The notes below the pieces were generated by a model. The model ran no database searches, was not told the DNA's origin, and saw only the letters and a list, made by a program, of their open reading frames with translations. From NCBI RefSeq assembly GCF_900167955.1, contig NZ_FUYK01000007.1, forward strand, positions 208,173-272,172: a DNA stretch of 64,000 nt, read 5' to 3'. Made by a program: the position numbers and the translations under genes. Source of the stretch: Candidatus Nitrosotalea bavarica (GTDB lineage: Archaea; Thermoproteota; Nitrososphaeria; Nitrososphaerales; Nitrosopumilaceae). Below are positions 22,443 to 25,857 of the stretch, one piece after another; within the stretch, counting starts at the first letter, position 1; each line of letters opens with the position of its first letter.

Positions 22443-22754
22443 TTAATTTGTAGAAGTCTTTGGTGCGACAATTTGTTGGCCACAGTATTTCCATCCTTTC
22501 AACTCACTACACACATTCGGATTTTTTTGTGCTACATGAAGTGATTGTTTCATCTTTGCCCACACATCTGGAGAACATAGCGTTTCTCCACAAATGTTTT
22601 GTCCACCTGGAATTCTATCTGTTTTCTGGGAATGTTTCCAATATACCGTGCTTGGTGTTAATGCATTTACAGCTGGTAATGCGGCTGATGCAAAAACCAA
22701 TACTACTGTTAATACTATTGCAACCAATCCTACCTTAATTTGTTGGTTAGACAT
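22443..22754 (-). CDS. exported four-cysteine protein
   Basis: The 103-residue protein begins with a signal peptide or anchor (basic NQQIK, hydrophobic 8-28, likely cleavage after VNA near residue 31). The mature part of about 72 residues has Cys55, Cys60, Cys82 and Cys91, suited to two disulfides or metal binding outside the cell, around GGQNICGETLC and GWKYCG. No family is recognised. It lies 15 bases upstream of aroD on the same strand. Confidence 0.72.
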   Translation of the reverse strand: MSNQQIKVGLVAIVLTVVLVFASAALPAVNALTPSTVYWKHSQKTDRIPGGQNICGETLCSPDVWAKMKQSLHVAQKNPNVCSELKGWKYCGQQIVAPKTSTN

Positions 22755-22999: not shown

Positions 23000-23299
23000 A
23001 TGAGTACAGGCGAACGACACGAATCAAAAGACACCGTCTTTATCGGAAAAAAGCCCATTATGGCATATGTAACATCTGCACTCATCCAGCTAGCTAACAA
23101 CCCACAAGTCTCAATAAAAGCAAGAGGGCTTAGCATTGGTAGAGCGGTAGACGTTGCACAAATAATTGCGAGAAGGACTGATAATTCCGGAGGATATTCT
23201 ATAGGACAAATCAAAATAGGATCAGAACAGCTTCAATCATTAGATGGAAGAGCAAGAAATGTGTCCACCATAGAAATAGAGGTAAAGAAAACAGCATGA
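23000..23299 (+). CDS. alba: DNA/RNA-binding protein Alba
   Basis: Alba is an abundant archaeal chromatin and RNA-binding protein. The 99-residue sequence has the conserved FIGKKPIMAYVTSAL block with the paired lysines at 17-18 (the site acetylated in Sulfolobus), KARGLSIGRAVDVA and the beta-hairpin around GYSIGQIKIG that inserts into the minor groove. It is a single-gene unit between a TATA-like box and a hairpin. Confidence 0.96.
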   Translation: MSTGERHESKDTVFIGKKPIMAYVTSALIQLANNPQVSIKARGLSIGRAVDVAQIIARRTDNSGGYSIGQIKIGSEQLQSLDGRARNVSTIEIEVKKTA

Positions 23300-23400: not shown

Positions 23401-24252
23401 TTGAGGAAAGTAATGTGGAAACCAAATTCTATAATGATTGGCAATTCAAAAGATCTTTCTCAGTTACAAGATAATACGGTTGCATTAACTGTAACATCTC
23501 CACCATATCATAATGCGATAAACTACCAAGAACACCAGGATACGGAAAAGTGGTATCGTGGAACTGTTGCGATATCTATTGAAGATTGGATTGCAGAGAT
23601 GAAAAGTGTTTTTTCTGAAGTTTATCGTGTAACCAAACCTGGAGGATTTTGCTGTATTGTAATAGGAAATGAAATCATTGAAGGAAAAAGTAAACTTCCT
23701 CTTCCTGCATTACTTCTTGTAGAGTTGACCAAGAAAGAAATTGGCTGGAGTTTCTTTGAAGAAATAATATGGAACAAAGTCACTGGTGGAAAAAAAAGAT
23801 TTCGAGTTACAGTTCAGCATCCTTATCCTACATATTATTATCCAAATATCATGCATGAACAAATTATAATTCTGCGAAAAATGCCATTTCATAACTTCAA
23901 AGACAAAAAAAGTAAACTGGTCCTTAACGATTTGATGAAAAAAGAAATTGCAAATTCAATCTGGCATATAGCTCCAATGCCTCCAAGCTATAGGAGATTT
24001 CATCCAGCGGCATTTCCAGAAGAGATACCTTATCGTCTAATTCAGCTTTATAGTAATATGGGTGACCTTGTACTTGATCCATTTGTTGGGAGCGGTCAAA
24101 CTACCAAGATGGCTAGATTCCTTCACAGAAAATACATTGGAGTAGATAAATCATCAAAATACGTTAAAATTGCTAAGAAAAGAACCCTGGAACCTCACTC
24201 TCTTCGTAAGATGCAACTGGTTCCTAACTGGAAAAAGCCAGAACCATTGTAA
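23401..24252 (+). CDS. DNA methyltransferase, probable N4-cytosine, beta class
   Basis: The catalytic motif TSPPYHN (SPPY at 33-36) precedes the SAM-binding LDPFVGSGQTT near the C-terminus. This order defines beta-class amino-methyltransferases, and SPPY favours N4-cytosine. No restriction endonuclease lies beside it, so it looks like an orphan methyltransferase for regulation or strand marking. It starts with TTG at 23401, with ATG 23413 as an alternative. The target sequence cannot be read from the gene. Confidence 0.87.
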   Translation: MRKVMWKPNSIMIGNSKDLSQLQDNTVALTVTSPPYHNAINYQEHQDTEKWYRGTVAISIEDWIAEMKSVFSEVYRVTKPGGFCCIVIGNEIIEGKSKLPLPALLLVELTKKEIGWSFFEEIIWNKVTGGKKRFRVTVQHPYPTYYYPNIMHEQIIILRKMPFHNFKDKKSKLVLNDLMKKEIANSIWHIAPMPPSYRRFHPAAFPEEIPYRLIQLYSNMGDLVLDPFVGSGQTTKMARFLHRKYIGVDKSSKYVKIAKKRTLEPHSLRKMQLVPNWKKPEPL

Positions 24253-24294: not shown

Positions 24295-24519
24295 TTGAGA
24301 ATCGAAAATTCATCTATGGTAACTTCTAACAGCAAATCGTATTTTCGAATTGTTGAAAAAAGTCACAGAAAATATACTGCGGCATTAAAACATGCCCAAT
24401 CCAGACAATCTATCATGAATTTGTACTGGCGACATAAAAGGGAACATGAATCTCTTTTGAAAAAACATCTTAAAGAAGAGATGGCTGAAATAATTCAGCT
24501 TAAAAAGAAATTCGAGTGA
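24295..24519 (+). CDS. small basic helical protein (74 aa)
   Basis: This lysine-, arginine- and histidine-rich helical protein begins with TTG at 24295, with an ATG at 24316 as an alternative. It includes a stretch of heptad-like leucines near the C-terminus (SLLKKHLKEEMAEIIQLKKKFE). It follows the methyltransferase by 42 bases on the same strand. A nucleic-acid-binding role is conceivable from charge alone. No family is recognised. Confidence 0.5.
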   Translation: MRIENSSMVTSNSKSYFRIVEKSHRKYTAALKHAQSRQSIMNLYWRHKREHESLLKKHLKEEMAEIIQLKKKFE

Positions 24520-24555: not shown

Positions 24556-24717
24556 CTAGCCTAATGATTTATACCACATGTCTGTAACACTCTTGTCTAA
24601 ACCTTTTCCGTTTGTAGAAATTTTTGACTTGTTCTCTAAATGCTGAGGCGTACCTATATGGGAATCTACTTCTTTTTCATCAATCTCTATAGAACATACA
24701 TTACAACGAAGATTCAA
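24556..24717 (-). CDS. C2H2 (U1-type-like) zinc-finger microprotein (53 aa)
   Basis: A TTG-started frame encodes 53 residues with Cys5, Cys8, His20 and His26 (RCNVCS...SHIGTPQHLENKSK), i.e. C-x2-C-x11-H-x5-H. This closely resembles the U1/matrin-type C2H2 finger (C-x2-C-x12-H-x5-H), including the H-x5-H helix followed by basic residues. An in-frame stop lies just upstream and a TATA-like TTATAC is about 25 bp before the TTG. It converges on the 74-residue gene with a 36-base gap. RNA or DNA binding is inferred from the finger type. Confidence 0.62.
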   Translation of the reverse strand: MNLRCNVCSIEIDEKEVDSHIGTPQHLENKSKISTNGKGLDKSVTDMWYKSLG

Positions 24718-24786
24718 TAGATTATTTTATTATGTCTTAGTATAAGAATTTTACAACTTTTTTAAATTGGTATTGTGTATGAAAAA

Positions 24787-25857
24787 TTATTTTTCTATGA
24801 TGTATTCGTCATCTACTTCCATGCCAAAATGCCTTCCTGTTGCAGGTTTTGAATATGCGAGAACTGAATCTCCTTTCTTTAGATGTGTGACTGAGATAAG
24901 ATGGCCATCTGGACGTACAAAACGAATGGTCTCAGCATTTTGTGCAATGATGCCGCCAATTTCATTTCCAATTTGTGCTTTAATCATTAGCATGGGTCTG
25001 CTCTCTATTTTAGAACGCCCCACTGTAGCTCTTCTAGCTTTACCATGTGAATCTATGACAAGAACTTCTGAACCAGTTTCTAATTCTGATAGGTAATTTG
25101 TTGTTCCATCTGGGGATAAAGTGTAACAATGTACTGCTCCCGCATTTACTCTAAAAGGCCTTGGTGAAGTAAATGATGAACCAACTGACTCATTATGTAC
25201 AAGAAAGAGGAAATTTGATCTACTGCCAATCAGCATTCCTTCACCTCGTTGTAACATTGAGGCTGTATCAACACAGACACGTTCACCATTTCCTACCTCC
25301 TTTATCTCCAAAATTTTGGCAGACTTGAGATCAAAACTCTTTGTTCCAAGATAGACAAGTGTCTCTTTTACCTCGTTTAACGAATTGGTTGAAAATATGA
25401 CTCCATCCACTCCTATCTCTAAGATAGAAAACATTTTACGGACTTCGTCTGGGGTATTGGCTACTGCAAATACCTTTGTGTGAATCTTGTGTAATTTTGC
25501 TATGATGTTCTCAAGGGGGATAATTTTCCAGTCTTTTACCTCTATTATAACAAAATCTAATCCTGCCTTTGCAAGTTGTAGTATTTTTTCTATATCTGCA
25601 TTTGAAAGAACTTTGAATTTCATTCCAGTCTTTTTACCTCTAAGTTTGGTGATTTTGTCAACTATGACATAATCTGCATTTGTGGACGTATGTATTGTAG
25701 AAAGTTTTGTCTTGATTCCTTTAAGGCTGCTAGGATCCATGTTGACAATCTTGATTCCTTCTTTTTCTATCTCTGATACAAATTTAGCAATCTGACCCCT
25801 TGAAATTTTTGGGGCTATAATTAATTCTCTGTTCTTACTCAAGATACTTCGCTGCAT
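24787..25857 (-). CDS. aroB': 3-dehydroquinate synthase II
   Basis: This archaeal enzyme (MJ1249 type) oxidatively deaminates and cyclises ADH to 3-dehydroquinate, replacing bacterial AroB. The 356-residue sequence shows NRELIIAPKISRG at the start, the GEGMLIGSRSNFLFLVHNES block, PRPFRVNAGAVHCY and the C-terminal ATGRHFGMEVDDEYIIEK. The start overlaps the ADH synthase gene by 23 bases; TTG 25842 is an alternative start nearer to NRELII. Together the two genes supply the shikimate cluster downstream. Confidence 0.94.
   Translation of the reverse strand: MQRSILSKNRELIIAPKISRGQIAKFVSEIEKEGIKIVNMDPSSLKGIKTKLSTIHTSTNADYVIVDKITKLRGKKTGMKFKVLSNADIEKILQLAKAGLDFVIIEVKDWKIIPLENIIAKLHKIHTKVFAVANTPDEVRKMFSILEIGVDGVIFSTNSLNEVKETLVYLGTKSFDLKSAKILEIKEVGNGERVCVDTASMLQRGEGMLIGSRSNFLFLVHNESVGSSFTSPRPFRVNAGAVHCYTLSPDGTTNYLSELETGSEVLVIDSHGKARRATVGRSKIESRPMLMIKAQIGNEIGGIIAQNAETIRFVRPDGHLISVTHLKKGDSVLAYSKPATGRHFGMEVDDEYIIEK

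Follow-up and report, generated by a model that had tools for sequence, protein, structure and literature searches.

U1-type zinc fingers have a first spacing of x12-14. Together with the matrin-type and JAZ fingers (Pfam zf-U1 PF06220, zf-met, and zf-C2H2_jaz PF12171), they are C2H2 fingers with H-x5-H between the last two ligands. In archaea, AFV1p06 is a 59-aa single-finger protein; by its published description it is viral and crenarchaeal, has a classical finger with an extension of its own, and binds DNA, and the survey of its family found no thaumarchaeal homologue (PMC3541406). The haloarchaeal C(P)XCG micro-proteins are further published archaeal single-finger proteins (PMC6562870, PMC10716476, PMC11241148).

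The window analyzed here, which is the whole 64,000-nucleotide stretch of DNA, carries a minus-strand gene for a C2H2 single-finger protein of 53 residues, MNLRCNVCSIEIDEKEVDSHIGTPQHLENKSKISTNGKGLDKSVTDMWYKSLG (Table 1). Like C(P)XCG proteins, Brz, and HVO_0758, it is archaeal, under ~70 aa, and has one predicted zinc site; those proteins differ in using two C(P)XCG motifs with Cys ligands instead of C2H2 (PMC6562870, PMC10716476, PMC2253796). With U1-type, matrin-type, and JAZ fingers, the archaeal finger shares H-x5-H; its predicted model has a beta-hairpin and broken helix, and its best structural neighbours were mostly fingers of these types, with weak scores. It differs from them in its x11 spacing, its acidity, and the lack of a reliable Pfam match, and the protein differs in being a stand-alone chain of 53–80 aa with a C-terminal Trp helix.

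Table 1. Coordinates of the zinc-finger gene, its elements, and its neighbours in the window.
Feature	Position	Strand	Evidence or remark
Single zinc-finger microprotein gene, 53 aa	24556..24717	-	TTG start 24717, stop 24556-24558
Zinc finger C5-x2-C8-x11-H20-x5-H26	24640..24705	-	Ligands invariant in alignments A1 and A2
C-terminal S-V-x-x-x-W motif, residues 43-48	24574..24591	-	Conservation in A1
TATA box TTCTTATA	24741-24748	-	31 to 24 nt upstream of start codon
3-Dehydroquinate synthase II, upstream neighbour	24787..25857	-	Pfam DHQS 3.5e-104; synteny
74-aa conserved basic protein, convergent neighbour	24295..24519	+	No Pfam match

Reading Frame and Conservation of the Gene

A sequence-only reading of this DNA had proposed an easily missed zinc-finger microgene, with C-x2-C-x11-H-x5-H in a 53-residue frame. 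The frame and motif were present as claimed, and so was the position; the strand, which the reading had left out, was minus. The gene was searched for in the window's genome and 60 relatives, and it was single-copy in 34 of the 37 same-genus (Nitrosotalea-like) genomes, each time with the same four ligands at the same spacing. Two of the three same-genus genomes without it also lacked the adjoining 74-aa gene, so an assembly gap is likely there. In the third (G025), the 74-aa neighbour was present with no finger gene beside it. Start codons in the genus were TTG or ATG only; one member (L027) was listed with ATC, and its actual start was the ATG one codon later. Over 171 pairs in the genus, mean pS was 0.55 and mean pN was 0.17. 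The dN/dS against the window copy was 0.06–0.22 where dS was estimable.

A chance reading frame without a product would agree with the short length, the TTG start, and the frequency of the exact motif, which two of the 40 windows simulated with equal dinucleotide make-up contained (about one in twenty). The motif by itself is only moderately rare. However, ligands, frame, start position, and TATA box are all conserved and dN/dS is low, and the idea of a chance frame, of negligible probability, is already refuted by these conservation data. The comparison of relatives showed that the frame is a genuine conserved gene under purifying selection, and the proposed archaeal microgene can be taken as real. 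The gene is certain because of its conservation in relatives, not because of the motif alone.

Promoter

Transcription in archaea starts about 25–30 nt past the TATA box. An ungapped stack of the 75 nt preceding the start codon was built for 34 genomes. An eight-base element with the genus consensus TTATTATA was found at about −31 to −24, and its position was nearly constant in the 34 genomes. Five core positions of the element carried 1.2–1.4 bits, whereas most other columns of the 75 nt had 0.1–0.5 bits. The comparison is internal to this stretch, and its columns are not independent because the genomes are related. The TATA-like box suspected from the single sequence was thus confirmed by position-specific conservation. 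Its distance from the start codon would place the mRNA start at or near that codon. The finger gene starts 69 nt after the 3-dehydroquinate synthase II gene; despite this upstream gene, the conserved TATA box argues for a promoter of its own. Leaderless transcription from this promoter is strongly suggested by the aligned upstream regions.

Distribution of the Family

With the genus profile, 400 genomes of the class were searched and 83 of them had relatives, although the weakest few of these matches (e.g., G075) are not finger proteins. A broader profile was run on 398 genomes of the phylum and found members of the order only, plus one doubtful match. This single match outside the order (G482) was rejected; it was without the H-x5-H spacing and lay within a larger frame. 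Proteins of the genus group had 53–57 aa. Those of family f2 had 53 aa and the tail DKVYDEDSxRLGIDA, and those of family f8 had about 60–80 aa, often with two paralogues. The remaining group consisted of a few further genera of family f1, some with an acidic tail.

The finger protein had no reliable match in the Pfam, NCBIfam, or PHROGs models, and no meaningful match came from a search of phage proteins (best E 3). The literature searched made no reference to a C2H2 family of either Nitrosotalea or Nitrososphaera. The protein represents a previously unmodelled family of single-finger microproteins of ammonia-oxidising archaea, which thereby gain a conserved microprotein family.

Zinc Finger, Architecture, and Predicted Fold

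Members were compared in alignment A1, of 26 sequences, and alignment A2, of 36. The four ligands were invariant in both, and this conservation of the Cys/His positions in relatives supports the predicted one-zinc site. In A1, where the first residue was set as Met for both TTG and ATG starts, invariance was confined to the start Met and the four ligand columns; N6, I7, N29, S43, V44, and W48 were conserved at 90% or above. The exact spacing C-x2-C-x11-H-x5-H was found in 65 of 67 family sequences. The C-terminal segment of the genus can be written as S-V-[VA]-x-x-W or S-V-[VAT]-x-x-W. A wider form, S-[VIL]-[VILA]-x-x-W, was conserved in the genus and most f8 members after a variable linker, and the Trp motif was absent from two lineages. 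The alignments showed a two-module microprotein in which a finger of fixed spacing is joined to an S-V-[VAT]-x-x-W segment by a variable linker. With its conserved promoter, such a small protein has a two-module design that can be put to the test.

The AlphaFold2 model had a beta-hairpin (residues 2-5/10-13), a helix (14-20), and a second helix (24-33), with the break between the helices falling between the histidines. Block-mean pLDDT was 84–92 over residues 1-30. A C-terminal helix (44-51) appeared in both models with low confidence (Trp helix pLDDT near 60). In this prediction the helix that follows the beta-hairpin is interrupted between the two histidines, an arrangement known from U1/JAZ-type fingers. 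The top Foldseek rows were mostly U1C, SNU23, JAZ, SF3A2, and TUT fingers (spliceosomal chains were named from the entry titles), with E of at least 0.17 and Z below 5. These structural scores are too weak to prove kinship with U1-type fingers.

The sequence-only reading had called the finger U1/matrin-like on the strength of its nearly matching spacing. The spacing failed as a sign of membership, being x11 in 65 of 67 sequences and not x12-14. A search with zf-U1 left the finger locus unmatched in its own genome, and in the alignments zf-U1 and zf-C2H2_jaz reached E 0.12–0.2 at best, on 2–3 members of each. Structure prediction was kinder to the name, since the nearest solved neighbours were mostly of the U1/matrin/JAZ type, although with weak scores. 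"U1-like" is a fair description of the predicted fold and of H-x5-H, and an unfair one of family membership. At the level of predicted fold, the finding suggests that U1-like finger geometry is not confined to eukaryotes.

The best PDB sequence-profile matches were RAD18 UBZ, OTU1, ZFa, and tRNA isopentenyltransferase, none of which was significant. A reader of ubiquitin-like proteins similar to UBZ fingers (C-x2-C-x11-H-x3-C/H) would explain why the first three ligands are spaced as in RAD18 UBZ, which was also the best PDB match (E 0.14–0.27), and it would suit the acidic character. It is nevertheless improbable, as the E-values are not significant and the fourth ligand follows at x5, not x3. 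Moreover, the Asp after the third ligand of RAD18 (H-L-D) is unconserved here, the position holding G, N, D, S, T, V, and others.

Charge and Possible RNA Binding

The mean net charge of the finger core was −3.3 in the genus, −1.6 in f8, −5.3 in f2, and −5.8 in a further lineage. The window protein had a net charge of −1 and f8 members were near neutral overall. The aligned first finger of the dsRNA-binding ZFa carried about +6, with charges counted from the alignment. The ten residues after the last His had a mean of about +1.6 in the genus, f8, and f2, and of −0.4 in that further lineage. The basic stretch noted earlier after the last His does exist in the window protein, but it is slight, consisting of NKSK only with net +1 over ten residues. 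The charge values speak for protein contact, with the near-neutral f8 members as a reservation. The mildly basic segment after the histidine in most lineages would make a local nucleic-acid contact possible.

RNA binding, which the sequence-only reading had implied, became doubtful with a finger that is acidic across the family and a basic stretch that is slight. The corresponding explanation is that of an archaeal U1/matrin-like finger that contacts RNA, double-stranded or structured, through its broken helix and the Lys following the last His. It is consistent with fold matches dominated by U1/JAZ/SF3A2/TUT fingers, with H-x5-H and the helix break as in U1-type fingers, and with weak hits in the profile search to the dsRNA binder ZFa, to tRNA isopentenyltransferase, and to ZNF593. 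The x11 spacing, the zf-U1 and zf-C2H2_jaz results given above, and the acidity throughout the family stand against it, and it is regarded as possible but rather doubtful. Somewhat more tentative is the proposal that these are order-specific, stand-alone U1-fold fingers with RNA or ribonucleoprotein complexes as their targets, the equivalent in prokaryotes of the U1/matrin finger of eukaryotes. If true, it would bear on the origin of eukaryotic U1-type fingers.

Genomic Neighbourhood and Possible DNA Binding

3-Dehydroquinate synthase II was a conserved neighbour of the finger gene in the genus only. In f2, the finger gene lay by genes identified from sequence as methionyl-tRNA synthetase and a nucleotidyltransferase. 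In f8, its surroundings held a beta-CASP nuclease, taken to be FttA/aCPSF1, or the gene for initiation factor 2 beta (Pfam eIF-5_eIF-2B). In other genera, it lay 18–45 nt after an ArsR-type regulator. No neighbour association recurred between the genus, f2, f8, and the other genera. Several neighbours act in information processing, but none recurs, so they give a hint only.

A DNA-binding transcription regulator, comparable to the viral AFV1p06 or the haloarchaeal zinc-finger micro-proteins, would be in keeping with the small single-finger size, with the place 18–45 bp behind an ArsR-type HTH gene in one lineage, and with the archaeal precedents AFV1p06 (PMC3541406) and Brz (PMC2253796). It is considered unlikely. 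The finger is acidic, the gene neighbourhood is not conserved, the AFV1p06 study found no thaumarchaeal homologue, and separate classical two-finger C2H2 microproteins of the same genomes would be the more natural DNA binders.

An acidic finger variant directly after the ArsR-type HTH gene was seen in an operon-like arrangement in a few further genera of the family (L085, L086, L087, L089, and L100). At high score, no more than 4 of the family's 151 genomes had the ArsR-linked variant.

Proposed Role

The reading preferred here, with a probability of about one half, is that the single-finger microprotein with a U1-like fold is a protein-docking adaptor; RNA binding is possible and less favoured. 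Zinc would stabilise a small acidic scaffold, and docking on protein partners would fall to the finger face and the Trp helix. The microprotein would thus serve a larger complex, probably one of information processing, as a small adaptor or modulator; by itself it would not recognise nucleic acid. The adaptor is favoured over a nucleic-acid binder because the finger is acidic, against about +6 in ZFa, and because the Trp motif is common to two families with a varying linker. The low pLDDT of the Trp helix, the weak structural scores, the mildly basic segment after the last His, and the two lineages without the Trp motif are points against it. Since the neighbourhood differs in every lineage, context supports no one specific complex. 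The weights given to the adaptor, RNA, DNA, and ubiquitin-like readings are our inference.

Other Small Proteins and Neighbours

The matches above the zf-C2H2_jaz cut-off in the relatives' whole genomes were rejected as members of the family, as they fell at other loci and not at the finger gene. Two of the seven inspected (L126 and L127) encode classical two-finger C2H2 microproteins. With L125 (G000:C17:35800-36700), these belong to a set of proteins of about 65–85 aa in the same genus, which exceeds the zf-C2H2_jaz cut-off in several genomes and forms a second, distinct archaeal C2H2 set. They differ from the single-finger family of the same ammonia oxidisers in spacing and charge. Another conserved small protein of the genus (L124, G000:C7:71500-72300; L130; L132) has one classical finger (CPVCKKKFTSLLEYTNHIGIDH and similar).

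Within the window, the 74-aa protein stood beside the finger gene across the genus with 63–97% identity. An N6/N4 DNA methylase gene (23401-24252, plus strand; Pfam N6_N4_Mtase) had an Alba gene (23000-23299) next to it, the two lying in a conserved block of the chromosome. A 103-aa protein without a Pfam match (22443-22754, minus strand) had Cys pairs and an N-terminal hydrophobic segment and is probably exported; it was a conserved neighbour of 3-dehydroquinate dehydratase, with 43–73% identity.
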